In this document: positions 43,249 to 63,274 of the stretch, one piece after another
Position numbering within the stretch: position 1 is the stretch's first letter
How the letters are laid out: every line of letters begins with the position of its first letter
From: Myxococcota bacterium
GTDB lineage: Bacteria > Myxococcota > B64-G9
NCBI GenBank assembly: GCA_022710975.1
Contig: JAKLGA010000015.1
Span: forward strand, 62,001 to 126,000
Direction of reading: 5' to 3'
DNA length: 64,000 nucleotides
The notes under the pieces: generated by a model
The model's database searches: none
The model's input: only the letters and a program-made list of their open reading frames with translations
What the model was told of the DNA's origin: nothing
Position numbers and translations under genes: made by a program

Positions 43249-44748
43249 TCAGCTCGCGCTGGCGCGGGTGGCCAGCGCTCCACGGGACTCCGGCAGGTGC
43301 GGCGAGTGGGCCCCGCAGGACTCCATGGCCTGCAGCTCCTCGTCGCTGGCCGGGTAGAAGCCGAGCTCCTGCAGCACCTTGAGCTTGGGCCGCACCTGGG
43401 TCTCCAGCCCCACGTGGAAGAAGCCGGGGAAGATGGCCGGGTGGGCCCGGATGAAATCGAAGATGGCCTGGTGCTCGGGGCGCACCTCGATGCGCGCGAA
43501 GCGGCTCACCTCGTGCCCGGTGATCATGTACTCGGGCAGCAGATCCGGGGCGAACTCGAGCCGGGCCGGGTCCACCTCGCGCTGGAAGATCTCCGTCTGC
43601 GGCAGCAGGCACAGCAAGGACGGCAGGATGCGCGCGCCCAGCATGCGGAAGGAGACCATCTGGAACACCGACTGGTGGAAGTCCGTCATGTCCTCGAAGG
43701 GGAAGCCCCACACGTAGAAGAGATCCACCCGCCGGAAGCGCTCGACCGCCCGCTGCACCACGGGGATGACGTCCGCGGCGCGGAAGCCCTTGCGGGTGCG
43801 CTCGAGCACCCGGTCCGAGCCGGACTCCACCCCGAAGCGGATCTCCACGCAGCCCGTGCCCGCCATGGCCTCCATCATCTCGGGGTCGGTCAGGTTGATG
43901 CGCCCGAAGGCCTTCCACTTCACCGGCAGGCCCGCGCGCCGCATCTCCTCGCAGAAGTCGAGCACCGGCGCGCGGCCGGACACGAAGAACTCATCCTGGA
44001 ACAGCACCAGCTCGGCGCCCGCCTGCTCGTGCAGGAAGCGGATCTCCTCCACGATGGCGCGCGGGGAGCGGTGCACGCTCTTCAGATCCCAGATGGGCGC
44101 CACCGAGCAGAAGGTGCACGGGTAGGGGCAGCCGCGCGAGGTGATGGTGTTGAAGCCGGTGTAGCGCTGGAGCGGCAGGTGGTGGTAGGCTGGCCTGGGC
44201 AGCGCGTCCAGGTCCTCGATGCGCGGCGGCCGGGGGGTGTGCACCACGCGCTCGCCGTCGCGGTAGGAGACGCCCGGCACCGCGGCCAGCGCCTCGTGGA
44301 GCGGCCGGCCGCTCGCCAGCGCCGCGACCAGCAGCGGGGCCGAGCGCTCGGACTCCCCGCGCACGATCAGATCCACCCAGGGGAAGGCGCGCAGGATGGG
44401 CTCCTCCACGCTCTTGGGCCCCACCCCCGCCAGCACCAGGGTACGGTCCGGCCAGCGCTGCTTGACCGCGCGCATGGCCAGCAGGGTGAAGGGCAAGAGG
44501 TTCGCCATGCAGGAGAAGCCGATCACCGGGGCCGGGTCCTCGAGCGCGCGCAGGATCTCCCCGGGGCTGAAGGGGTCCTCGGCCTCGTGGAGCTGGTAGT
44601 CGCGCAGATCGACCCGGTAGCCCGCGGCCTCCAGGGCGGCGGTCACGTACAGCGGCCCCAGCGGCAGGTGGCGCTCGCGCTCCACCATGTCGAAGTACCG
44701 CACGTAGAGCATGTTGAGGTTGAGGATGGTGATGTGGGCCGGGTTCAA
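43249..44748 (-). CDS. Radical SAM protein with B12-binding-like N-terminal domain
   Basis: A 499-residue protein. TTG 44748 follows the upstream gene by 3 nt and has a GAGGAG site. The N-terminal ~150 residues resemble a cobalamin-binding Rossmann fold but lack the classical DxHxxG motif. The radical SAM core has the CxxxCxxC cluster in RGCPYPCTFCS (Cys207, 211, 214), followed by typical elements (ELVLFQDEFFV, IRFGVESGSD). Members methylate or rearrange unreactive carbons in natural products, lipids or peptides. Close coupling to a Tat-exported repeat protein suggests that protein as substrate or partner. Proximity to the sterol/isoprenoid genes leaves a lipid substrate open. Confidence 0.85.
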   Translation of the reverse strand: MNPAHITILNLNMLYVRYFDMVERERHLPLGPLYVTAALEAAGYRVDLRDYQLHEAEDPFSPGEILRALEDPAPVIGFSCMANLLPFTLLAMRAVKQRWPDRTLVLAGVGPKSVEEPILRAFPWVDLIVRGESERSAPLLVAALASGRPLHEALAAVPGVSYRDGERVVHTPRPPRIEDLDALPRPAYHHLPLQRYTGFNTITSRGCPYPCTFCSVAPIWDLKSVHRSPRAIVEEIRFLHEQAGAELVLFQDEFFVSGRAPVLDFCEEMRRAGLPVKWKAFGRINLTDPEMMEAMAGTGCVEIRFGVESGSDRVLERTRKGFRAADVIPVVQRAVERFRRVDLFYVWGFPFEDMTDFHQSVFQMVSFRMLGARILPSLLCLLPQTEIFQREVDPARLEFAPDLLPEYMITGHEVSRFARIEVRPEHQAIFDFIRAHPAIFPGFFHVGLETQVRPKLKVLQELGFYPASDEELQAMESCGAHSPHLPESRGALATRASAS

Positions 44749-45851: not shown

Positions 45852-45889
45852 CTGTCTGCCGATCGGATTCAGCCACGAGAGGAGCACGC

Positions 45890-47185
45890 GTGAACTCCAG
45901 CTTGCGGTTCGGCCTCGAGGCCCTGAGCGTCCACATCCCCCGCCACCACCTGGAGATGGGCGAGCTGGCCCGCGCCACCGGGGTCGATCCCCAGAAGTAC
46001 CTGCAGGGCCTGGGCGTCCAGAGCATGGCCGTGGCCGCCCCGGACGAGGACCCGGTCACCATGGCCTGCGAGGCGGCCGGCGCCCTGCTGCGGGACTACC
46101 GCGTCGATCCGGCCTGCCTCGGGCTGCTGGTGGTCGGCTCGGAGAGCGGGGTGGACGAGGCCAAGCCCATCGCCACCTTCGTGCACGGCCTGCTCGGGCT
46201 GCCCCCCGGCTGCCGCACCTTCGACACCAAGCACGCCTGCTACGGCGCCACCGCGGCGCTGCGCCTGGCGCTCGACTGGTGCGAGGCGCGCGGCGCGCGG
46301 GCCGGCAAGAAGGCGCTCGTCGTGGCCAGCGACATCGCCCGCTACGAGGTCGGCTCGGCCGGCGAGCCCACCCAGGGCGCGGGCGCGGTGGCCATGCTCG
46401 TCTCGGACGAGCCCGCGCTGCTCGCCGTCGAGCCCTGGCCCGAGGCGGTCTTCACCCAGGACGTGATGGACTTCTGGCGCCCCAACTACACCGCCTGCGC
46501 CCGGGTGGACGGCCAGGTCAGCATCCAGTGCTACCTGCGCGCGCTGGAGCACTGCTGGGGCGACTTCGAGCGCCAGTCGCGCCTGGGCTTCGACGACTAC
46601 GAGCACATGCTGTTCCACGTGCCGTTCCCCAAGATGGCCTACAAGGCCTTCCGCGCGCTGCACGAGCGCGAGGCGGCCCGGCGGGGCGGAGAGCTGCCCG
46701 GGCTGGACGCCCTGTTCGCCGAGCGCACCGAGCCGGGCCTGTGGGTGAACCGCCTGGTGGGCAACGTGTACTCGGGCTCGCTGTACCTGTCGCTGGCGGG
46801 GCTCCTGGAGCGCGGGGACCGGCGGGTGGAGGGCGCCCGGGTGGGGCTGTTCTCCTACGGCTCGGGCTGCTGCGCCGAGTGGTTCTCGGCCCGGGTGGGG
46901 CCGGACGCGGGCGCCTGGCGGGGGCGGGTGGGCATCGCCGAGGCGCTCCGGCACCGCCGGGCGCTCGAGCACGCGGAGTACCTGCAGTTCCGCGCCCTGG
47001 CCGAGCACCTGGCCCAGGACGACTCCTGCCTGGAGCCGCTGCCCGGGCCGTCCGCCCGCCCGCGACCCCAGTACCTGGGGGTGCGCGGGGATCGCCGTCA
47101 GTACCGCGCCCCCGCGCGGGCCTGCGCCGGCCAGGCCGCCGAGGCCGACTCCGCCCTGGCGCTCGCCGCCGGCGCCCTTCGCTGA
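45890..47185 (+). CDS. mvaS: Hydroxymethylglutaryl-CoA synthase
   Basis: A 431-residue enzyme; GTG 45890 has an AGAGGAG site. It condenses acetyl-CoA with acetoacetyl-CoA to HMG-CoA, the first committed step of the mevalonate pathway, in the cytosol. Catalytic Cys117 lies in FDTKHACYGAT. Other family segments are GSAGEPTQGAGAVAMLV, HVPFPKMAYKAFRALHE (catalytic His) and NVYSGSLYLSLAGLLE. A near-perfect sigma-54 promoter lies upstream, and the other early pathway enzymes (HMG-CoA reductase, mevalonate kinase) are encoded 9 kb downstream behind a similar promoter. It is divergent from the radical SAM operon. Confidence 0.95.
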   Translation: MNSSLRFGLEALSVHIPRHHLEMGELARATGVDPQKYLQGLGVQSMAVAAPDEDPVTMACEAAGALLRDYRVDPACLGLLVVGSESGVDEAKPIATFVHGLLGLPPGCRTFDTKHACYGATAALRLALDWCEARGARAGKKALVVASDIARYEVGSAGEPTQGAGAVAMLVSDEPALLAVEPWPEAVFTQDVMDFWRPNYTACARVDGQVSIQCYLRALEHCWGDFERQSRLGFDDYEHMLFHVPFPKMAYKAFRALHEREAARRGGELPGLDALFAERTEPGLWVNRLVGNVYSGSLYLSLAGLLERGDRRVEGARVGLFSYGSGCCAEWFSARVGPDAGAWRGRVGIAEALRHRRALEHAEYLQFRALAEHLAQDDSCLEPLPGPSARPRPQYLGVRGDRRQYRAPARACAGQAAEADSALALAAGALR

Positions 47186-49167: not shown

Positions 49168-51120
49168 TCATCCGGGCAGGGCGGCGTCGTACTCGCTGAG
49201 CGCCCAGACGGGGAAGTAGCGCCGGTAGTTGTCGTAGTCGATCAGCGTCGAGTGGTTGAACACCCCGACCAGCGGCTCGCGCGGCCAGCCGCCGTCCGCC
49301 TCCTGGCGGGCCAGCAGGAAGCGGGCCGCGCGCCGGGCGGGCTCGGTGCCGCCGAGCCCCGCCTGCACCAGCGCCGAGAGCGCCCAGGCGGTCTGGGCCG
49401 CCAGGCCCTCCGCGGCCGGCACCCAGCGGCGCTCCGCGCACGAGCTGCCGTCCTCGCCGAAGCCGCCGTCGCCGCGCTGCTTGCCGATCAGGAAGCCGCA
49501 GGCGCGCTGCAGGTCGCGATCGCCGGGCGCGGCCCCGGCCGCGCGCAGGCCCCGCACCCCGAACCAGGCCGCGTAGGAGAAGCACACCGCCCACGAGCCC
49601 ACCCAGGAGCCGTCCGGGCGCTGCTGCCCGCGGATGAAGCGCGCCCCGCGCTCGAGCGCCCGCCCGATGGGCCGCTCGAAGCGCCCGGGGAAGCGCGCCC
49701 GCGCCCGGGCCAGCGCCTGCAGGCAGGAGGAGGTGCACTCCACGTAGGGGTGCTCGACCATGATGCCGGCGAACACCTGCGAGGGGTTCAGCCACTCGAG
49801 CCAGGCGCCGGCCCGCTGCAGCTCGTAGGTGGCGAAGCCGCCCGAGGGGTTCTGGTAGCCGAGCAGCAGCCGGCTCGCGTCCTCCAGCCGCTCCGCGGGC
49901 ACCGCGCCCCGGGTCAGGCCCCAGGCCTCCAGGCCGAGCGCGGCCTTGAGCCCCTCGGCCGTGCAGTCCGAGATCGGCCAGCCGTGGGCGCGGTCGGAGA
50001 AGGGCCAGCCGCCCCGGCTGGGGTGACGGAAGTAGCGCGCGTGCTCGGGCAGGTCGTCCAGCACCTGGTTGTCGCGGATGAAGTCCTGGGCGCGCTCCAG
50101 GGCCGCGCGCGCGGCCGCCGGCTGGGGCGAGGCCAGGATGGCCTGGACCGCGAAGGCCGTGTCCCACAGGGCGGTCGAGTTGTAGCCGTTGAACAGGATC
50201 CCCTCGGGGGTCTCCTGCAGGTACTGCTCCAGGGCCGCGAAGCTGCGCCGGAAGCGCTCGCCGCCGGGCTCGGCGAAGTGGTGCACCAGCGCGTTCAGCA
50301 CGCTGTTGACCGGGCCGATGTCGAGGTCCTGGGTGGCCTGATCCTCGTAGCAGATGTGGTCATAGAGCTCGTCCAGCGCCCGCGCGCGCAGCGCCGGCCG
50401 GTGGCGGGCGTCGTAGGCGGCCATCAGCTCGGCCGCCGCGCGGTACAGCCGGGTGATCGGGTAGCGGTCGTCGCAGGCGGCCACGCTGTGGCGGTGCGCG
50501 GCGAAGGGGACCTCCGCCCAGGGCCGGTCGTACAGCTCCCGCCGGAGCGCCCGGGTGAGCTCGCCCTCGGGCGCGCAGGCCCTGCGGCCGAACAGCCAGG
50601 CCATGGGCAGGTAGACCTGGCGGGTGTGGCACCACAGCCTGCCCGGGTGGATGGGCAGCGCGCGCGGCAGCAGCCACAGCTCGGGCAGCACCGGGGACAG
50701 CCCATCGTAGGGGTAGAGCCCGAGCGTGGCGAGCAGCAGCTTGCCCCAGCTCGCGGCCCCCACGGGCGTGCCCTGGGCGTGGATCCAGCGCCGGGCCCGG
50801 GCGGCGTGCAGCTCGGAGGCGTCCGCGCCCAGCACGCGCATGGCCACGTAGCCGAGCGCGGTGGTGAACAGGCAGCCCCCGCGGTCCTCGGTGTGCAGCC
50901 CCAGGCTGCCGTTCGGGTTCTGCACCCGCCGCAGGTAGCGCAGCATGCCCGCCCGGCGCTCCTCCGGGATGGCCTGCCCGGCGGCGTGGCACACGGCCAC
51001 GTACATGGGCAGCAGGAACATGGGGCCGCCGTACTCGCCGCGCCAGGCGCCGTCGGCCTGCTGGCGACCGGTCAGGTGCTCGACGCCGCGGGCCACGGCC
51101 CGCCGGACCTCGGCGCGCAT
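49168..51120 (-). CDS. Oxidosqualene cyclase, cycloartenol-synthase type
   Basis: A 650-residue triterpene cyclase; ATG 51120 has GAGGAGG. It carries the oxidosqualene-cyclase motif DCTAE (Asp385, GWPISDCTAE), not the DxDD(T) of squalene-hopene cyclases. It also has CHTRQVYLPM, LWDTAFAVQAI and several QW repeats (QRPDGSWVGSW, QEADGGW). Residues equivalent to plant cycloartenol synthase Tyr410, His477 and Ile481 are Tyr313, His379 and Ile383; lanosterol synthases differ at these positions. It should cyclise 2,3-oxidosqualene to a cycloartenol-like sterol precursor. It is last in the ispA-aroF-U32-cyclase operon. No squalene epoxidase gene is in the window. Confidence 0.92.
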   Translation of the reverse strand: MRAEVRRAVARGVEHLTGRQQADGAWRGEYGGPMFLLPMYVAVCHAAGQAIPEERRAGMLRYLRRVQNPNGSLGLHTEDRGGCLFTTALGYVAMRVLGADASELHAARARRWIHAQGTPVGAASWGKLLLATLGLYPYDGLSPVLPELWLLPRALPIHPGRLWCHTRQVYLPMAWLFGRRACAPEGELTRALRRELYDRPWAEVPFAAHRHSVAACDDRYPITRLYRAAAELMAAYDARHRPALRARALDELYDHICYEDQATQDLDIGPVNSVLNALVHHFAEPGGERFRRSFAALEQYLQETPEGILFNGYNSTALWDTAFAVQAILASPQPAAARAALERAQDFIRDNQVLDDLPEHARYFRHPSRGGWPFSDRAHGWPISDCTAEGLKAALGLEAWGLTRGAVPAERLEDASRLLLGYQNPSGGFATYELQRAGAWLEWLNPSQVFAGIMVEHPYVECTSSCLQALARARARFPGRFERPIGRALERGARFIRGQQRPDGSWVGSWAVCFSYAAWFGVRGLRAAGAAPGDRDLQRACGFLIGKQRGDGGFGEDGSSCAERRWVPAAEGLAAQTAWALSALVQAGLGGTEPARRAARFLLARQEADGGWPREPLVGVFNHSTLIDYDNYRRYFPVWALSEYDAALPG

Positions 51121-51143
51121 GGGGACCTCCTCGGCTGCCCGGG

Positions 51144-53654: not shown

Positions 53655-54530
53655 TCAGCAGTCCCGGCGGACGATGAACGCGGCCATGGTCCGCAGGGCC
53701 TCGGCCCGCGCCCCGAACGGCGCGAGCTCCTCGACCGCCTCCGCGGCCAGGCGACCAGCGTACTCCCAGCCGCTCTCCAGGCCCAGCAGGTCCGCGTAGG
53801 TGGTCTTGCCCATGGCGCGGTCCTTGCCCGCGGACTTGCCCAGGCTGTGGGCCTCGCCTACCACGTCCAGCAGGTCGTCCGCCACCTGGAAGGCGAGCCC
53901 GAGCCGCTGGGCGTAGCGGGTCAGGCGGGGCAGCGCCGCCTCGTCGGCCCCGGCCAGCAGCGCGCCGACCCGCACCGCGGCGGTCAGCAGCGCCCCGGTC
54001 TTCAGGCGGTGGATGCGCTCCACCTCGGGCTGCGCGAGCGCCCGGCCGGTCTCCAGCGTGTCCAGCACCTGGCCGCCGACCATGCCGCCCGCGCCGGCCG
54101 CCTGCGACAGCTCGAGCGCGGCCCGCAGCGCGCGGGCCGGCTCCCCGGCCGCGCGGCCGAGCAGCCCGAAGGCCTCGGTCAGCAGGGCGTCCCCGGCCAG
54201 GATGGCCAGCGCCTCACCGTAGCGCTTGTGGCAGGTGGGCAGCCCGCGGCGCAGATCGTCGTCGTCCATGGCCGGCAGGTCATCGTGGATCAGGGAGTAG
54301 GTGTGCACGAACTCCAGGGCGCAGGCCGCCGGCATGAGCCCGGCCCCGCCGCCGGGGAACAGCTCCGCCGTCGCCAGCACCAGGATGGGGCGGACCCGCT
54401 TGCCTCCGGCCAGCAGGGAGTAACCCATGGCCTCGCGCAGGCGCGCCGGGGCCTCCACCCGCGCGAGCGCCTCGCGCAGGCCGTGCTCGATCCGCTGGCG
54501 GTGGGCCTCCAGGGCGGCCGGAAGCTGCAT
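53655..54530 (-). CDS. ispA: Polyprenyl diphosphate synthase (farnesyl/geranylgeranyl type)
   Basis: ATG 54530 (GAGGAG site) gives 291 residues. TTG 54557 is rejected because it lies inside the -12 element of the sigma-54 promoter and has no ribosome site. First Asp-rich motif DDLPAMDDDDLRRG, second DDLLD, and the KTGALL segment place it in the IspA-type short-chain prenyltransferases that make FPP or GGPP from IPP and DMAPP. It heads the minus-strand operon ispA-aroF-U32-cyclase, so FPP supply for squalene and the cyclase is likely. Chain length cannot be fixed by eye. Confidence 0.92.
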   Translation of the reverse strand: MQLPAALEAHRQRIEHGLREALARVEAPARLREAMGYSLLAGGKRVRPILVLATAELFPGGGAGLMPAACALEFVHTYSLIHDDLPAMDDDDLRRGLPTCHKRYGEALAILAGDALLTEAFGLLGRAAGEPARALRAALELSQAAGAGGMVGGQVLDTLETGRALAQPEVERIHRLKTGALLTAAVRVGALLAGADEAALPRLTRYAQRLGLAFQVADDLLDVVGEAHSLGKSAGKDRAMGKTTYADLLGLESGWEYAGRLAAEAVEELAPFGARAEALRTMAAFIVRRDC

Positions 54531-54556
54531 GTCCTCGCTCCTCGCCCCGGCTGCCA

Positions 54557-54572
54557 AGCAAGAAGCGCGCCA
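54557..54572 (-). promoter_or_regulatory. Sigma-54 promoter of the ispA-aroF-U32-cyclase operon
   Basis: On the minus strand TGGCGC-GCTTC-TTGCT: -24 GG and -12 GC in exact 12-nt register, one base from the consensus TGGCACG-N4-TTGC. The predicted start near 54546 lies about 16 nt before the ribosome site/ATG 54530. Confidence 0.75.
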
Positions 54573-54607
54573 GCGGTTCTCCGCCCCGGGCCGGCCGGCG
54601 GGGCGAT

Positions 54608-54636
54608 CCGCACGCCCGCGGCGTGCGGGTTCGCAC
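54608..54636. promoter_or_regulatory. Shared palindromic sites between divergent sigma-54 promoters
   Basis: CCGCACG (54608-54614) / CGTGCGG (54622-54628) and GTGCGGGTTCGCAC (54623-54636) form alternating half-sites. They sit ~50 bp from the ispA -24 element and ~95 bp from the fni -24 element, as expected for an activator binding site serving both promoters. Confidence 0.5.
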
Positions 54637-54721
54637 CCCCGGCCCCCGGGGAGAGCCGAGGCGCCAGGCGTGGGGGCGCCGTTCTCGCGGGCGGGTCGGG
54701 GCTTGGGGAGGCGGGCCGGGC

Positions 54722-54737
54722 TGGCATGCTTCCTGCT
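54722..54737 (+). promoter_or_regulatory. Sigma-54 promoter of the fni operon (weaker match)
   Basis: TGGCAT-GCTTC-CTGCT: GG (54723-54724) and GC (54735-54736) in the correct register. It deviates at T for C in the -24 box and CT for TT in the -12 box, but shares GCTTC with the divergent ispA promoter. The predicted start is near 54747, just before GGAGG (54753-54757). Confidence 0.6.
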
Positions 54738-54763
54738 CCGGCGCAGCCCGCCGGAGGTGTGCG

Positions 54764-55819
54764 TTGGGACAGGACGCAGAGCGAACCGAGCGCCGCAAGC
54801 GCGATCACCTCGAGCCCTTCCGCCGGGGGGGCGTGCCGGCCCGTGCGGCCACCACCTGGCTGGAGCACGTGTGGCTCGAGCACTGCGCGCTGCCCGAGCT
54901 GGCGGCCGACGAGCTGGACCTGTCCACCGAGTTCGCCGGGCGCAGCTTCCGCGCCCCGCTGTTCGTGACCGGCATGACCGGCGGCACCCCCGAGGCCGGG
55001 CGCATCAACGCGGAGCTGGCGGCCGTGGCCGAGCGCCTGGGGCTGGGCTTCGGCCTGGGCAGCATGCGCGCCATGTTCGAGCGCCCGGAGCTCCTGGCGA
55101 GCTACCAGGTCCGGGCCGCGGCGCCGCGCGTGTTCCTGGCCGGCAACCTGGGCGCGGCCCAGCTCAGGACGCTGGGCCTCGCGCGCGTCCGCGAGGGGCT
55201 CGCGGCCGTGGGCGCCGACGCCCTGTGCGTGCACCTGAACCCCGCCCAGGAGCTGGCCCAGCCCGAGGGGGAGCGGGACTTCCGCGGGCTCGGCGCGGCC
55301 ATTGCCGAGGCGGTGGCCGGCCTGGGGCTGCCGGTCATCGTCAAGGAGACGGGCGCCGGCCTGGGGCGCCGCGCGGGCCGCGCGCTGCGGGAGCTCGGCG
55401 TGCGCTGGGTCGACGCGGCCGGCGTGGGCGGCACCTCCTGGGTGGGCGTCGAGCTCGCGCGCCAGGGCGCCGTGGCGCGGGGCCTGGACTGCTTCTGGGA
55501 CTGGGGCGTGCCCACGGCCGCGGCGGTGGCGGAGCTGGTCGACGAGGGGCTCGAGGTGCAGGCCTCGGGGGGCGTGCGTACCGGCCTGGACGTGGCCCGG
55601 GCGCTGGCCCTCGGGGCGCGCCTGGCCGGGCTGGCCGCGCCGGTGCTGGGGGCCTACTTCCAGGGCGGGCCGGCCGCGGCCGAGCGGCTGCTCGACGGGG
55701 TGCTCGAGGGGCTGCGGGCGGCCATGCTGCTGACCGGCTGCCGCGATCTGGGCGCCCTGCGGGCCGCCCCCCGCCGGCTGGTGGGCCCGCTGCGCGCCTG
55801 GCTGGAGGACGCACGGTGA
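54764..55819 (+). CDS. fni: Type 2 isopentenyl-diphosphate delta-isomerase
   Basis: A 351-residue FMN enzyme. TTG 54764 follows GGAGG by 6 nt and gives GQDAERTERRKRDHLEPF, the standard N-terminus. Family motifs are visible: FVTGMTGGTPEAGRIN, GLGSMRAMFE, LNPAQELAQPEGERDF, VKETGAGLG, GVGGTSWVGVE, and the FMN-phosphate loop ASGGVRTGLDVA. It interconverts IPP and DMAPP. Its stop overlaps the start of the kinase/reductase fusion (GTGA). The preceding 233-base gap holds the divergent sigma-54 promoters. Confidence 0.93.
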   Translation: MGQDAERTERRKRDHLEPFRRGGVPARAATTWLEHVWLEHCALPELAADELDLSTEFAGRSFRAPLFVTGMTGGTPEAGRINAELAAVAERLGLGFGLGSMRAMFERPELLASYQVRAAAPRVFLAGNLGAAQLRTLGLARVREGLAAVGADALCVHLNPAQELAQPEGERDFRGLGAAIAEAVAGLGLPVIVKETGAGLGRRAGRALRELGVRWVDAAGVGGTSWVGVELARQGAVARGLDCFWDWGVPTAAAVAELVDEGLEVQASGGVRTGLDVARALALGARLAGLAAPVLGAYFQGGPAAAERLLDGVLEGLRAAMLLTGCRDLGALRAAPRRLVGPLRAWLEDAR

Positions 55820-57930
55820 GGCTCGCCTACGGCAAGGTGATCCTGTTCGGCGAGCACGCGGTGCTCTATGGCCGGCCGGCGCTGGCGGGCGGCATCGATG
55901 CCGGGGTGCGGTTGGAGGCGGTGAGCGCCGCCCCGGCCGGGGTCCGCCTGCGGGTGCCCGACTGGGAGCTCGCGGCCGACGAGCGCAGTCCCGGGGCCCT
56001 GGGCGCGGCCCTGCGCAGGCTGTGCGAGCTGGTGCCCGGGCCGGGCTTCGAGGCCACCCTGCGGGCCAGCCTGCCGCTGGGCGCGGGCCTGGGTGGCTCG
56101 GCCGCGCTGTCTGTGGCCCTGGTGCGCTCGGCGGCGGCCGCCCGCGGCCAGGAGTGGCAGGCAGCGCGGGTGCGCGAGCTGGCCCACGAGCTGGAGAAGG
56201 TGTTCCACGGCACCCCCTCGGGGCTGGACGATACGGTGGCCACCCACGGTGGGCTGTGCCTGTTCTACCGCGACGGCCTGCCGCCCGGCGGGCTGCCGGA
56301 GCCGGGCGCCGAGCGGCTGGGCGGGCAGGCCGCGCGCCTGCCCTGGGCGCTGCCCGCGCTGGTGGTGGGTCAGAGCGGGGTGCCGCGCGCCACCCGCGAC
56401 ATGCTGGTGCGCGTCCGCCGCCGCTGGGAGGACGGGCGGGCCGCCACCGAGCGGCTGTTCGAGCGCATCGAGGGCTGCCTGCAGGGCGGCCTGCGGGCCC
56501 TGCGGACCCAGGACGCGCCGGCGCTGGGCGCGGCCATGCTGGAGAACCAGGCCTGCCTGCAGGAGCTGGGCGTGTCGCTCCCGGAGATCGAGCGCATGGT
56601 GTCGCTGGCGCTCGAGGCCGGCGCGCTGGGCGCCAAGCTGACCGGCGCGGGCGGCGGCGGCGGGGTGATCGCGCTGGCCCCCGGGCGCGAGGCCGAGGTG
56701 GCCGCGGCCTGGCGGGCCGCGGGCTTCTCCGCCTTCGTGGCCTCGTCCGGGCCCGGCTCCCGGCTGCGCGGCCTGCACGCGCTCGCGCCCGCGGAGCGGC
56801 GCGCGGCGGTGGCCGGGCGCGCCGGGATCCCGGCCGCGGAGCTCGAGGCGCTGGCGGACGGCGGGCTGTCGCTCGAGCTGGCCGATCGCCTGGTGGAGAA
56901 CGTGCTGGGCCGCTACAGCCTGCCCTTCGCCGTGGCCCCCAACTTCCTGGTAAACGGGCGCGAGCTGGTGGTGCCCATGGTGACCGAGGAGCCCTCCGTG
57001 GTGGCGGCCGCCGCCAACGCGGCCCGCCTGGCCCGCGCGGGCGGTGGGTTCCGGGTGGAGGTGGACCCGCCCGAGATGGTCTGCCAGGTGCAGCTCTTCC
57101 ACCCGCGGCCGGAGGAGGCCGCTGCGCGCCTGCTGGCGGCCGAGGGTGAGCTGCTGGGCCTGGCCGCGGCCGCGGATCCCGCCCTGATCGCGGCCGGCGG
57201 CGGGCCGCTCGCGCTGGAGGCGCGCTGCTTCCCGCCCGAGGCGCCGGACGAGGACGGCTTCCTGGTGCTGCACCTGCGGGTCGACGTGCGCGACGCCATG
57301 GGCGCCAACGCCGTCAACAGCATGGGCGAGGCCATCCTGCCGCGCGCGCTCGCGCTGTGCGGTGGCAGGCCGGGGCTGCGCATCCTCACCAACCTGGCCG
57401 ACCGGCGCCTGGTGCGCGGGCTGGTGCGCGTGCCCGCGGCGCCGCTCTCGGTGGGCGGGCTGTCGGGCGAGCAGGTGCGGGACGCCATCGCCGCCGCCTC
57501 GCGCTTCGCCGAGCGCGATCCCTACCGGGCCGCCACCCACAACAAGGGCATCATGAACGGCATCGACGCGCTGCTGCTGGCCACGGGCAACGACTGGCGG
57601 GCGGTCGAGGCCGGGGCGCACGCCTACGCCGCCAGGCAGGGCGGCTACCGGCCGCTGTGCACCTGGCGGGCGGAGGACGGGGCCCTGGTCGGACGGCTGG
57701 AGCTGCCCATGGCGGTGGGGGTCGTGGGCGGCGCCGCGCGGGTGCACGCCGGGGCGCGCCTGGCGCTCAGGCTGCTGGGAGCCACGCGGGCCGCGGAGCT
57801 GGCCGCCGCCGCGGCCGCGGTGGGCATGGCCAACAACCTGGCGGCCCTGCGCGCGCTGGCCACCGAGGGCATCCAGCGCGGCCACATGCGCCTGCACAGG
57901 CGCGCCGCCGCGCCCGGGGAGGCCCGGTGA
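55816..57930 (+). CDS. Mevalonate kinase - class II HMG-CoA reductase fusion
   Basis: One 704-residue frame from GTG 55816. Residues ~1-312 are a GHMP mevalonate kinase: GKVILFGEHAVLYGRPALAG, PLGAGLGGSAALS, HGTPSGLDDTVA and KLTGAGGGGGVIAL. After a very short linker (GPGSRLRG) a complete class II HMG-CoA reductase begins: VENVLGRYSLPFAVAPNFLV, PMVTEEPSVVAAA (~388-400), DAMGANAVNSMGE (~493), THNKGIMNGID (Lys577) and EGIQRGHMRLH (His690). The order, kinase then reductase, puts two consecutive steps that meet at mevalonate on one chain. An in-frame GTG at 56737 could allow separate reductase translation, but there is no stop after the kinase. It overlaps the genes on both sides by 4 bp. Confidence 0.93.
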   Translation: MRLAYGKVILFGEHAVLYGRPALAGGIDAGVRLEAVSAAPAGVRLRVPDWELAADERSPGALGAALRRLCELVPGPGFEATLRASLPLGAGLGGSAALSVALVRSAAAARGQEWQAARVRELAHELEKVFHGTPSGLDDTVATHGGLCLFYRDGLPPGGLPEPGAERLGGQAARLPWALPALVVGQSGVPRATRDMLVRVRRRWEDGRAATERLFERIEGCLQGGLRALRTQDAPALGAAMLENQACLQELGVSLPEIERMVSLALEAGALGAKLTGAGGGGGVIALAPGREAEVAAAWRAAGFSAFVASSGPGSRLRGLHALAPAERRAAVAGRAGIPAAELEALADGGLSLELADRLVENVLGRYSLPFAVAPNFLVNGRELVVPMVTEEPSVVAAAANAARLARAGGGFRVEVDPPEMVCQVQLFHPRPEEAAARLLAAEGELLGLAAAADPALIAAGGGPLALEARCFPPEAPDEDGFLVLHLRVDVRDAMGANAVNSMGEAILPRALALCGGRPGLRILTNLADRRLVRGLVRVPAAPLSVGGLSGEQVRDAIAAASRFAERDPYRAATHNKGIMNGIDALLLATGNDWRAVEAGAHAYAARQGGYRPLCTWRAEDGALVGRLELPMAVGVVGGAARVHAGARLALRLLGATRAAELAAAAAAVGMANNLAALRALATEGIQRGHMRLHRRAAAPGEAR

Positions 57931-58793
57931 GCCACGCGGCGGCCATGGCGGCTTGCCGGGCGGTGCTCGCGCGCTCCGGTTCGAGCTTCCGCACGGCCTT
58001 CCGCCTGCTGCCGGCCGAGCCCCGGGACGCGCTGACCGCGTTCTACGCGTACTGCCGGGAGGTGGACGACGCGGTCGACGAGGCGCCTGACGAGCTCTGC
58101 GCGCGGCGGGCCCTGGCGGGCTGGCGCGCGCGGCTGGAGGCAGCGCTGGCCGGCCGGCCGGGCGGGCCGGTGGAGGAGGCGCTGGCCTGGGCCGCGGGGC
58201 GCTATCGGTTGCCGCGGGCGCACCTGGAGCTGGTGATCGAGGGGGTCGAGCAGGACCTCGCCCAGCGCCGCTTCCGCACCTTCCAGGAGCTGCACGCCTA
58301 CTGCTACCGGGTGGCCTCGGCGGTCGGCCTGGTGTGCGCCGCGGTGCAGGGCGGGCGGGGCGCGGAGGTCGAGCTGTACGCCGAGCTGAGCGGCGTGGCC
58401 GTGCAGCTCACCAACGTGCTGCGCGATCTGGGCGAGGACGCCGCCCGCGGGCGCATCTACCTGCCGCTCGAGGACCTCGAGGCCTTCGGGGTGAGCGAGG
58501 CGGACATCCTCGGGCGGCGCCCGACCCCGGCGCTCGGGCAGCTGCTGCGCTTCGAGGCTGCCCGCGCGCAGGCGCTCTACGCGCAGGCCGCGGCGGCGCT
58601 GCCCCCCGCGCTGGCCGCCCGGCTGTACTTCTGCGAGGCCCTGCGCGAGACCTACCAGCGCCTGCTCGCGCGCCTGGTGGCCGCGGACCTGCCGGTCTTC
58701 GGCGCGCGGGTGAGCCTGCCTGCGTGGGAGAAGCTGCTGGTGGTGCTCAGGCGGAGGTTGAGCCCGGCGGCCCTGTGGGCCGGCCGGGCCTAG
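57927..58793 (+). CDS. Squalene/phytoene synthase family protein (HpnD/CrtB-like)
   Basis: GTG 57927 overlaps the preceding stop and has GGGGAGG upstream; 288 residues. The two Asp-rich motifs of head-to-head prenyltransferases are present: YCREVDDAVDEAPDE and NVLRDLGEDAARGRIYLPLE. YLPLEDLEAFGV and the ~285-residue size are typical of HpnD (presqualene diphosphate synthase) and CrtB rather than eukaryotic-type squalene synthase. With a cycloartenol-type cyclase in the divergent operon, making (pre)squalene from FPP is the better fit. HpnC and HpnE partners are not seen. Confidence 0.88.
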   Translation: MSHAAAMAACRAVLARSGSSFRTAFRLLPAEPRDALTAFYAYCREVDDAVDEAPDELCARRALAGWRARLEAALAGRPGGPVEEALAWAAGRYRLPRAHLELVIEGVEQDLAQRRFRTFQELHAYCYRVASAVGLVCAAVQGGRGAEVELYAELSGVAVQLTNVLRDLGEDAARGRIYLPLEDLEAFGVSEADILGRRPTPALGQLLRFEAARAQALYAQAAAALPPALAARLYFCEALRETYQRLLARLVAADLPVFGARVSLPAWEKLLVVLRRRLSPAALWAGRA

Positions 58794-58803
58794 GAGGAAC
58801 ACC

Positions 58804-60240
<1,437 letters not shown>

Positions 60241-60253
60241 GGCCCGAGCGGAC

Positions 60254-61342
60254 ATGCACCGGCTGGAGCTGCTCTTCCGGCGCGCGGAGCGCGTCGAGGT
60301 CCTGGTGGGTGCGGGCGCCTGGGAGGCCCTGCCCGGGCTATGGCGACCGGAGTGGCGCCAGGCCGCGCTGATCGGCGACAGCCGGGTCATGTCGCTCTTC
60401 GGCGCGCGGCTCGAGGCGCTGCTCGGAGCGCGGGTGGGCGCGCTGCACCCGCTGTCCTTCCCCCCCGGCGAGGCGCACAAGACCCGGGACACCAAGCAGC
60501 GGCTCGAGGACGCGCTGCTCGAGGCCGGCCTCGATCGAGGCGGAGTCGTGGTGGCGGTCGGCGGCGGCCTGAGCCTGGACGTGGCCGGCTTCCTGGCCGC
60601 CACCTACCAGCGCGGGCTGCCGTGGCTGGCGCTGCCCACGACGCTCTTGGCCCAGGTGGACGCGGCCGTGGGCGGCAAGGTGGGGGTGAACACCCCGCGG
60701 GGCAAGAACCTGGTGGGCGCCTTCCACCAGCCGAGCGCGGTGCTGGTGGAGCCCGCGGTGCTCGAGGACCTGCCGCCCGAGGTGTGGCGCGACGGGCTGG
60801 CCGAGCTGGTGAAGCACGCGCTGCTGGCCGACGCCGGGCTGTTCGCCCGCCTGGAGGCCGAGGCCGAGCGCCTACGCCTCCCGTGCGTCCCGGAGGACGG
60901 CCTGCTGGCCCGGGCGCTGGCCATCAAGGCCGAGGTGGTGCAGGCGGACGAGCGCGAGGACGACCGGCGCATGGTGCTCAACCTGGGGCACACGGTGGCC
61001 CACGCGGTGGAGGCGGCCACGCGCCACGCCTGGAGCCACGGGCGGGCGGTGGCCTGCGGCCTGCGGGTCGAGCTCCGCCTGGCCGAGCGGCGCACGGGCT
61101 TCCCGGCCGGGGAGCGCGCCCGGGTGGACCGGCTGCTCGAGCAGCTGGGCTTCCCGCCCGAGGCGCCCGGTCCGGCCTCCGAGGTGCTGGCCTGGGCCGC
61201 CGCGGACAAGAAGCGCCGCGGCGGGCAGCTCGGCCTGGCGCTGCCCGAGGCGCTCGGGCGCATGGCCACCCGGGACGGGCGCTACGCCCTGGTGGTCCAA
61301 CCCGGCGAGCTGGAGGCGGCGTGGGCGGCGACATTTGCGTGA
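60254..61342 (+). CDS. aroB: 3-Dehydroquinate synthase
   Basis: A 362-residue NAD- and metal-dependent enzyme converting DAHP to 3-dehydroquinate. Motifs: VVAVGGGLSLDVAGFLAATY (NAD loop), LPTTLLAQVDAAVGGKVGVN, RDGLAELVKHALL (metal Glu) and LNLGHTVAHAVE with HGRAVACGL (metal His). It follows the NtrC-type regulator gene by 13 nt and begins a run of overlapping shikimate genes, so it may be read through from the isoprenoid operon. Confidence 0.95.
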   Translation: MHRLELLFRRAERVEVLVGAGAWEALPGLWRPEWRQAALIGDSRVMSLFGARLEALLGARVGALHPLSFPPGEAHKTRDTKQRLEDALLEAGLDRGGVVVAVGGGLSLDVAGFLAATYQRGLPWLALPTTLLAQVDAAVGGKVGVNTPRGKNLVGAFHQPSAVLVEPAVLEDLPPEVWRDGLAELVKHALLADAGLFARLEAEAERLRLPCVPEDGLLARALAIKAEVVQADEREDDRRMVLNLGHTVAHAVEAATRHAWSHGRAVACGLRVELRLAERRTGFPAGERARVDRLLEQLGFPPEAPGPASEVLAWAAADKKRRGGQLGLALPEALGRMATRDGRYALVVQPGELEAAWAATFA

Positions 61343-61983
61343 GCCTGCGGCCGCCCACGTTGGCGGCCGCCCGGGCGGCGCTCGCGGCCCTGGCGGCCGA
61401 GGGGCTGCGCCTGGCCGAGCTGCGCCTGGACGACCTCGCGGCCTCGCCCGCCGAGGTGCGCGCGCTGTGCGGCGCCCCGCTGGCGCTGGTGGCCACCTGC
61501 CGGCCGGGAGGCGCCGCCTCCGGCCGGCGCGCCGAGCTGCTCGAAGCGGCCCTGGCGGGCGGCGCGGCCTTCCTCGATCTCGAGCTGGAGACGCCGCCGT
61601 CCGAGCGCGCGCCGCTCGTCGCCCTGGCCCGCGGGCTGGGGCGCAAGCTGATCGTGTCCTCCCACGACCACGCGGGCACGCCGCCGGCCGCGGAGCTCGC
61701 GCGGCGCCGGGAGGCCTGCTTCGAGGCCGGGGCCGACGTGGCCAAGCTCGCCTGCCTGGTGCGCGCGCCGCTGGACAACCTGCGCCTGCTCGCCCTGCTC
61801 GACGATCCGCGCCCGGTGGTGGTGGCCGGCATGGGGCCGCTGGGCCGGGTGAGCCGGGTGCTGGCTCCGCTGCTGGGCGCGCCCTTCACCTACGCCTCCG
61901 CCGCCCCGGGCCAGGAGACGGCCCCGGGCCAGCTCGACCACCGCGCGCTGCGCAGGCTGCTGGAGGAGTTAGGCCGTGCCTGA
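61321..61983 (+). CDS. aroD: Type I 3-dehydroquinate dehydratase
   Basis: A 220-residue Schiff-base dehydratase; GTG 61321 lies within the aroB 3' end (22-bp overlap) with a GGAGG upstream. It converts 3-dehydroquinate to 3-dehydroshikimate. The catalytic pair is visible: His in IVSSHDH and the Schiff-base Lys in DVAKLACLV. LAELRLDDLA and ATCRPGG are family strands. It overlaps the next gene by 8 bp. Confidence 0.92.
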   Translation: MGGDICVSLRPPTLAAARAALAALAAEGLRLAELRLDDLAASPAEVRALCGAPLALVATCRPGGAASGRRAELLEAALAGGAAFLDLELETPPSERAPLVALARGLGRKLIVSSHDHAGTPPAAELARRREACFEAGADVAKLACLVRAPLDNLRLLALLDDPRPVVVAGMGPLGRVSRVLAPLLGAPFTYASAAPGQETAPGQLDHRALRRLLEELGRA

Positions 61984-63274
61984 GCGCGCCGCCCGCTTCG
62001 CCGTGCTGGGCGATCCGATCCTGCACAGCCGCAGCCCGGAGCTCTACCGGGCCGCGTTCGCCGCCCGCGGCCGCGCGGACGCCTACACCCGCGTGCTGTG
62101 CGGCCAGGCGGGCCGGGCCGTGGAGCTGGTGCGCGGCCTGGGGCTCTCGGGGGCGAACGTCACCAGCCCGCTCAAGGAGGCGCTGGCCGGGCGCGTGGAC
62201 CGGCTGGAGGGCGCGGCCGCGCGGCTCGGGGCGGTCAACACGCTGGTCGTCCGCGCGGGCCGGCTGATCGGCCACGACACCGATCCGGACGGGGTGCGGG
62301 GCGCCCTGCGCGAGGCCGGCGTGGCCCTGCCGGGCCGGCGCGCCGTCGTGCTGGGCGCGGGCGGCGCCGGGCTGAGCGCGGCCCTGGCGCTGGTCGAGGC
62401 CGGGGCCAGGGTGACGCTGCTGAGCCGCACACCCGGGCGGGCCGCCGCCGCCGCCGCGCGGGTGGGCGCGGCGCACGCCCCGCTCGCGGACGCGCGCGCG
62501 CAGCTCGCCGGGGCCGAGCTGGTGGTGGGCTGCCTGCCACGCACGGCCGCGGCGCCCGAGCCCGGCTGGCTGGCGCCCACGGCGACGGTGCTGGACGCCA
62601 ACTACCCGGACGGGGCCCTGGAGCGCGCGGCCCGGGCGCGGGGCTGCCGGGTGGTCCCGGGCCTGGGCTGGCTGCTGCACCAGGCGGCCGCCGCCCACGC
62701 CCTGCTCCTGGAGGAGCCGGCGCCGCTCCAGGAGATGCGCGCCGCGCTGGCCGCGCCCGCCGCCGCGCGCGGGCCGTGGCTCTCCCTGGTGGGCTTCATG
62801 GGAGCGGGCAAGAGCAGCCTGGCCGCGCTCCTGGCCGAGCGTCTGGGCTGCGCCTGCGTCGATCTGGACCGGGACATCGAGGCCCGCGCCGGGCGCTCGA
62901 TCCCGCGCCTGTTCGCCGAGCAGGGCGAGCCCGGCTTCCGCGCCCTGGAGCGCGCGGCGCTCGCGGCCCTGCCGCTCGATCGGCGGCTGGTGCTCGCCTG
63001 CGGCGGTGGGGCGCCGCTGGACGAGGGCAACCGGGCCCGGCTGCGGGCCGGCGGCCCGGTGGTGTGGCTGTGGACGTCGCTCGCGACCGCGCTCGGCCGG
63101 GCGGGCGCCGGGGGCCGGCCGCTCCTCGAGGGCCGGTCGCCGGCGGAGCTCGAGGCGCTGTACGCCGCGCGCCTGGCCGCCTACGCCCGGGCGGCGGAGC
63201 TGGTGGTGGACGCCGAGCCGGCCGCAGGGCTGGTGGCGGAGAGGATCGCGGATGCGCTGGGTGCGGCCGGGTAA
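61976..63274 (+). CDS. aroE-aroK: Shikimate dehydrogenase - shikimate kinase fusion
   Basis: A 432-residue bifunctional protein from GTG 61976. Residues ~1-260 are AroE: SRSPELYRAAFAA, ANVTSPLKEAL (catalytic Lys), GAVNTLV, HDTDPDGVRGAL and NADP loop VLGAGGAGLSAALAL. Residues ~265-432 are AroK: Walker A GFMGAGKSSLA, DLDRDIEARAG and ACGGGAPLDEGNR. Together they turn 3-dehydroshikimate into shikimate-3-phosphate, consecutive steps between aroD upstream and aroA downstream. The fusion shortens the operon and could channel shikimate. Confidence 0.93.
   Translation: MPERAARFAVLGDPILHSRSPELYRAAFAARGRADAYTRVLCGQAGRAVELVRGLGLSGANVTSPLKEALAGRVDRLEGAAARLGAVNTLVVRAGRLIGHDTDPDGVRGALREAGVALPGRRAVVLGAGGAGLSAALALVEAGARVTLLSRTPGRAAAAAARVGAAHAPLADARAQLAGAELVVGCLPRTAAAPEPGWLAPTATVLDANYPDGALERAARARGCRVVPGLGWLLHQAAAAHALLLEEPAPLQEMRAALAAPAAARGPWLSLVGFMGAGKSSLAALLAERLGCACVDLDRDIEARAGRSIPRLFAEQGEPGFRALERAALAALPLDRRLVLACGGGAPLDEGNRARLRAGGPVVWLWTSLATALGRAGAGGRPLLEGRSPAELEALYAARLAAYARAAELVVDAEPAAGLVAERIADALGAAG

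Follow-up and report, generated by a model that had tools for sequence, protein, structure and literature searches.

We analysed a 64,000-nucleotide stretch of a Myxococcota genome (contig JAKLGA010000015.1, positions 62,001 to 126,000; hereafter the window), in which one open reading frame joins a mevalonate kinase (MVK) to a class II 3-hydroxy-3-methylglutaryl coenzyme A (HMG-CoA) reductase (HMGR). The GTG start of this frame overlaps the stop codon of a type 2 isopentenyl diphosphate (IPP) isomerase gene (IDI2), and its TGA stop overlaps the GTG start of the following gene, which encodes an HpnD-like presqualene diphosphate synthase (Table 1). The genome is assembled into 29 contigs (7.13 Mb, 98.6% complete, 75% GC) and contains no second HMGR, leaving the fusion as its only one.

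Both halves of the frame match their families over their full extent. The MVK part aligns with profile TIGR00549 over residues 4–287 (profile positions 1–276 of 276; 204 bits, cut-off 163), and the GHMP_N and GHMP_C domains also score above cut-off. The HMGR part matches PF00368 over residues 325–695 (317 bits) and TIGR00532 over residues 315–694 (335 bits, cut-off 260). When the separate enzymes of relatives are aligned with the fusion, their MVKs cover residues 4–312 and their HMGRs start at 313–314, so that the linker measures about 6–8 residues. The initial annotation had recognised the same two enzymes at the same positions in one frame, with a linker of a few residues, and the profile matches, the alignments and the predicted folds bear this out.

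The catalytic motifs of both enzymes are present. An alignment with eleven relatives identifies in the MVK part the N-terminal lysine (YGKVILFGEH), the glycine-rich loop GAGLGGSAA, the KLTGAGGGG motif and, within HELEKVFHGTPSGLDD, the catalytic glutamate and aspartate; we take the roles of these residues to be those established for rat MVK. The aligned HMGR part contains the Glu/Lys/Asp/His motifs TEEPS, THNKGIMNG, GNDWRA and QRGHM. The fused HMGR stops shortly after its catalytic histidine. Absent from it is the C-terminal flap segment that follows this histidine in other class II enzymes (window 57880–57930), as it is from the unfused HMGRs of two relatives, G005 (L041:6088–7296) and G020 (L042:5751–7112). 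The flap lies outside the family models used, and we therefore describe the enzyme as a class II HMGR without a flap; the earlier description of a complete kinase and a complete reductase holds for profile coverage and motifs and fails for the flap.

An open frame alone is weak evidence in this genome, because DNA of 75% GC commonly has long open frames, antisense ones included; here the antisense frame is open along the entire 704 codons. A chance open frame was ruled out by the end-to-end family matches of both halves. A frameshift or missed stop was likewise ruled out: no forward frame contains a stop codon between 56667 and 56900, so that no single-base insertion or loss could restore one near the end of the MVK, and no such correction could introduce the stop near 56750 that had been proposed as a refutation. 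Homology to two families over the full frame, codon-position GC that is uniform across the junction, intact motifs and the stop-free junction confirm, at the level of sequence, that the fusion is more than chance. An AlphaFold2 model built on a 31-sequence alignment predicts both folds (mean predicted local distance difference test score 83.8; predicted template modelling score, pTM, 0.59), with low confidence at the junction (residues 311–323) and at residues 349–369. Foldseek relates the HMGR part of the model to the P. mevalonii HMGR and the MVK part to the MVKs of M. mazei and L. major; with a pTM of this size, the predicted arrangement of the domains relative to each other should not be relied on.

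The gene order in relatives suggests how the fusion came about. In G005, which belongs to the same family, the order is IDI2, MVK, mvaD, PMK, HMGR, HpnC, HpnD, HpnE, where mvaD and PMK stand for diphosphomevalonate decarboxylase and phosphomevalonate kinase; G004 and G020 likewise have these two genes between MVK and HMGR. The window has IDI2, MVK-HMGR, HpnD. The unfused enzymes of these three relatives are the closest homologues of both halves and sit in the same neighbourhood, differing in that MVK and HMGR are separate genes with mvaD and PMK in between. In quick trees of MVK and HMGR, both halves of the fusion cluster with the unfused enzymes of these relatives (SH-aLRT 99 for each), and the nearest named rows are metagenome-assembled genomes of Myxococcota or 'Deltaproteobacteria', so that a myxobacterial host is probable. 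Given this grouping and the relatives' gene order, the simplest account is that an inherited operon lost mvaD and PMK by deletion, and the fusion most likely arose in this way.

Neither deleted gene turns up elsewhere. Protein queries from G005 gave no match to mvaD or PMK in this genome at E ≤ 1, the same queries having matched every relative that has the pathway, and a profile search of the genome for mvaD was also negative. Relocation of the two genes was ruled out on these grounds, with both family and protein queries negative and positive controls in place. Only two other GHMP kinases score over the cut-off in the genome: ispE and one that, from its sequence, appears galK-like. The genome thus lacks both PMK and diphosphomevalonate decarboxylase, which the canonical mevalonate pathway requires.

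Since mevalonate 5-phosphate would be a dead end without PMK and MvaD, the archaeal modified mevalonate pathway was tested through its signature family, the AcnX dehydratases; the negative mvaD searches rule out those other known routes that depend on a homologue of MvaD. Five overlapping genes on another contig of the same genome (C27:205709–209984, or L214:15710–19985, the contig position being the L214 position plus 189999) encode a UbiD-family protein, the large and small subunits of AcnX, UbiX and an isopentenyl phosphate kinase (IPK). The best PDB matches of the IPK are solved IPKs. The AcnX large subunit is 43.6% identical to the phosphomevalonate dehydratase (PMDh) of T. kodakarensis over 360 aligned residues. 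At the positions reported for PMDh (PMC10040528; PMC8184944), all three cluster cysteines (Tk C110, C283, C342) are cysteines, the site-C cysteine is absent, and the mevalonate-5-phosphate contacts Gly48, Val49, Ser50, Asn79, Pro80, Ser130 and Lys361 are kept. A hydroxyproline dehydratase was considered and rejected: the best PDB match is an archaeal PMDh (307 vs 184 bits), there are two subunits and no site-C cysteine, and UbiD, UbiX and IPK genes adjoin. Among ten genomes compared, AcnX is full length in this one only, with no match over cut-off in eight other family members or in G020. Contamination was rejected as the source of C27, its tetranucleotide distance to the window falling inside the window's own scatter. 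No PMDh operon was found beside an HMGR in the 80 loci examined from genome contigs.

Table 1. Coordinates of the fused gene, the five genes on contig C27, the reverse-order fusions and the isoprenoid genes of the window. Positions are those of the window unless a locus is named.
Feature	Position	Strand	Evidence or remark
MVK-HMGR fusion gene, 704 aa	55816..57930	+	GTG start, TGA stop
MVK part, residues about 1–308	55816..56739	+	TIGR00549, PF00288, PF08544; alignment with relatives' separate MVKs
Linker, residues about 309–314	56740..56757	+	alignments; low-confidence loop in predicted model
Class II HMGR part without C-terminal flap, residues about 315–704	56758..57930	+	PF00368, TIGR00532, alignment
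In-frame GTG where relatives' HMGRs begin, possible internal start	56737..56739	+	no clear Shine-Dalgarno upstream
UbiD family	L214:15710–17056		TIGR00148, 269 bits vs 245
AcnX large (predicted PMDh subunit)	L214:17053–18270		PF04412, 457–458 bits
AcnX small (swivel)	L214:18267–18650		PF01989, 115 bits
UbiX	L214:18643–19206		236 bits vs 188
IPK	L214:19197–19985		NF040647, 166 bits vs cut-off 120
Reverse-order HMGR-MVK loci	L139, L140, L141, L142, L143, L144, L145		G018, G030, G040, G079, G034, G024, G037
HMG-CoA synthase, source of HMGR substrate	45872..47185	+	PF01154, PF08540; TIGR01835, 352 bits, cut-off 360
Squalene/oxidosqualene cyclase family protein	49168..51126	-	PF13243, PF13249; TIGR01787, 568 bits; TIGR03463, 746 bits, below cut-off 851
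Polyprenyl diphosphate synthase	53655..54557	-	PF00348
IDI2	54623..55819	+	TIGR02151, 327 bits vs 281; true start probably within frame
HpnD-like presqualene diphosphate synthase	57927..58793	+	TIGR03465, 276 bits, just below cut-off 279; PF00494

From the genes and their arrangement, we consider it probable that the frame encodes a real bifunctional MVK-HMGR, born of the deletion of mvaD and PMK, that feeds an acquired archaeal-type lower pathway. In the proposed scheme, the HMG-CoA synthase of the window would supply HMG-CoA, the HMGR part would convert it to mevalonate, and the MVK part would phosphorylate mevalonate to mevalonate 5-phosphate. At this intermediate the fused enzyme would hand over to the C27 operon, whose enzymes are predicted to dehydrate, decarboxylate and phosphorylate it to IPP; the IPP may then supply IDI2 and the window's polyprenyl synthase, HpnD and cyclase. 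We also lean towards a wider evolutionary account, in which the archaeal-type lower pathway took the place of the canonical one and a bifunctional mevalonate-5-phosphate synthase came into being when mvaD and PMK, by then superseded, were excised; together with separate fusions in the order HMGR-MVK (see below), this would indicate repeated selection for, or tolerance of, a coupling of the two steps. The order of events would be as follows: first, the genome would have acquired the archaeal-type lower pathway by transfer; second, mvaD and PMK would have become dispensable because of this acquisition; third, their deletion from between MVK and HMGR in the ancestral operon would have fused the two remaining genes. 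Loss of mvaD and PMK fits an archaeal route that needs neither and spends less ATP (PMC10040528).

The predicted pathway shares with the archaeal modified mevalonate pathway (Aeropyrum pernix, Methanosarcina mazei; also reported in Chloroflexota) the predicted PMDh subunits, a putative UbiD-type decarboxylase with UbiX, the IPK, and the absence of PMK and MvaD. It differs in its bacterial host, in a class II HMGR that is fused to MVK, and in the presence of a methylerythritol phosphate (MEP) pathway besides; the activities are predicted from genes. In 2023 the archaeal route was still described as unique to archaea (PMC10040528); a later paper reports an archaeal-type pathway in Chloroflexota (PMC13001223, which cites Kanno et al. 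2024). The combination of an archaeal-type lower pathway with a fused MVK-HMGR appears to be new.

Several points weigh against this interpretation. The phosphate-site residue Asn53 of PMDh is replaced by Ser in the C27 AcnX, whose cysteine pattern is common to a function-unknown AcnX from Cupriavidus (39% identical). The cluster cysteines alone are thus non-discriminating, and it is the operon context that discriminates: no UbiD, UbiX or IPK gene lies within 5 kb of the Cupriavidus control. UbiD specificity cannot be read from sequence, and anhydromevalonate phosphate is proposed as the UbiD substrate from operon context. The operon and the fusion lie on different contigs. The comparison includes a single genome of the genus. 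The MEP pathway is encoded too (dxr, ispG, ispE), as in other family members, so that the mevalonate route need not be essential or the sole source of IPP and may supply the triterpenoid cluster instead of meeting a general demand. Finally, the window cluster keeps HpnD without the adjoining HpnC and HpnE of G005 (L041:2885–6071), and their absence could mean that the cluster is decaying.

The last two points would also suit a relic, in which the deletion left a fused, metabolically idle MVK-HMGR while the MEP pathway supplies isoprenoids and the C27 AcnX/UbiD/IPK operon has some other role. We regard this as unlikely: at none of the HMGR columns that at least 98% of 131 homologues conserve does the fusion differ, its MVK deviates at strongly conserved columns about as little as those of close relatives, its codon-position GC is intact, and the overlapping C27 genes hold, by prediction, exactly the missing activities. 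Alternatively, the frame might yield two separate proteins like those of relatives, through an internal start or proteolysis of the linker, and the fusion would have little functional meaning. The in-frame GTG at 56737 sits at the start position of relatives' HMGRs, and the linker is modelled as a low-confidence loop; however, the MVK has no terminating stop, so ribosomes that start at 55816 must continue into the HMGR, no clear Shine-Dalgarno sequence precedes 56737, and an internal start could at most produce HMGR alone in addition to the fusion, which would still be made. We consider this very unlikely and expect that the bifunctional enzyme is made as one uncleaved polypeptide. An assembly or sequencing artefact, with mvaD and PMK actually there or a stop missing from the sequence, can hardly be the explanation: the locus is known from one assembly, but an accidental join would need to preserve the frame and also trim each domain almost exactly, give or take a few residues, at its natural end. 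Moreover, no indel could bring back a stop at the junction, the whole assembly, 98.6% complete, lacks mvaD and PMK, and activities that would make them unnecessary are encoded.

We know of few gene fusions in the mevalonate pathway. The initial annotation knew of no characterised kinase–reductase fusion and called for a domain-architecture search; no published description of one, in either order, was found in the open-access literature. Among the matches listed for 195 genomes, which were ranked by score and in which a spanning match is expected to rank high, a single match covers both domains in the order MVK-HMGR in this genome only. Seven other genomes of the phylum, from six families, have the two enzymes in the opposite order, with HMGR ahead of MVK in a single open frame of 750–813 codons. 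These frames contain the same two enzymes as the window gene but differ from it in four respects: the reductase comes first, its flap is kept ahead of the MVK, all seven genomes retain the canonical mvaD and PMK, and the frames form one clade apart from the window fusion (SH-aLRT 99; all seven were included in the MVK tree and three of the seven in the HMGR tree). Because this clade is separate, MVK and HMGR appear to have been joined twice, once in each order. The frame is shared by genomes that have diverged from one another, including one with a GC content of 39%, and this argues for the reverse-order frames as candidate single proteins. MvaE of Enterococcus likewise has a class II HMGR C-terminal to a fused mevalonate-pathway enzyme, but its partner is acetoacetyl-CoA thiolase, two steps before HMGR, whereas the partner here is MVK, the step after HMGR; the window fusion has no thiolase domain, its domain matches being GHMP kinase and HMGR only.

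HMGR is the main control point of the mevalonate pathway, and its union with MVK in one protein brings possible channelling or feedback between the two active sites within direct experimental reach; the reverse-order fusions offer a natural counterpart for comparison. The linker is short, and each of the parent enzymes usually forms oligomers. The genome resembles a snapshot of a pathway swap, with a bacterial fused upper half, canonical lower genes excised and an archaeal-type lower operon present; the fusion looks like the scar of this swap. Such a case is relevant to the question of how bacteria came by the archaeal route. Another PMDh from a bacterium would also be of practical use, the archaeal enzyme being oxygen-sensitive and limiting the pathway in engineered hosts (PMC10040528). 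Within the family, the mevalonate cluster is patchy: four members (G002, G003, G006 and G007) have no HMGR or MVK match, yet dxr and ispG are present.

The surroundings of the fusion hold further isoprenoid genes (Table 1), and a scan of 54500–60400 for promoters and terminators found nothing. Between 49168 and 63274, the triterpenoid genes (cyclase, polyprenyl synthase, HpnD and IDI2) are interspersed with shikimate-pathway genes, namely chorismate mutase-DAHP synthase and, by eye, aroB, aroD and aroE-aroK, and with genes for a U32 peptidase-like protein and a regulator of the sigma-54 type; G005 and G020 share much of this mixture. The frame at 61976–63274 contains a shikimate dehydrogenase (residues 8–258) and a shikimate kinase (267–428), another apparent fusion nearby. 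A second gene of the squalene/phytoene synthase family is located on contig C17 (L216:7598–8719), and a B12-binding radical SAM protein is encoded on the minus strand at 43249–44748, close to the HMG-CoA synthase gene.

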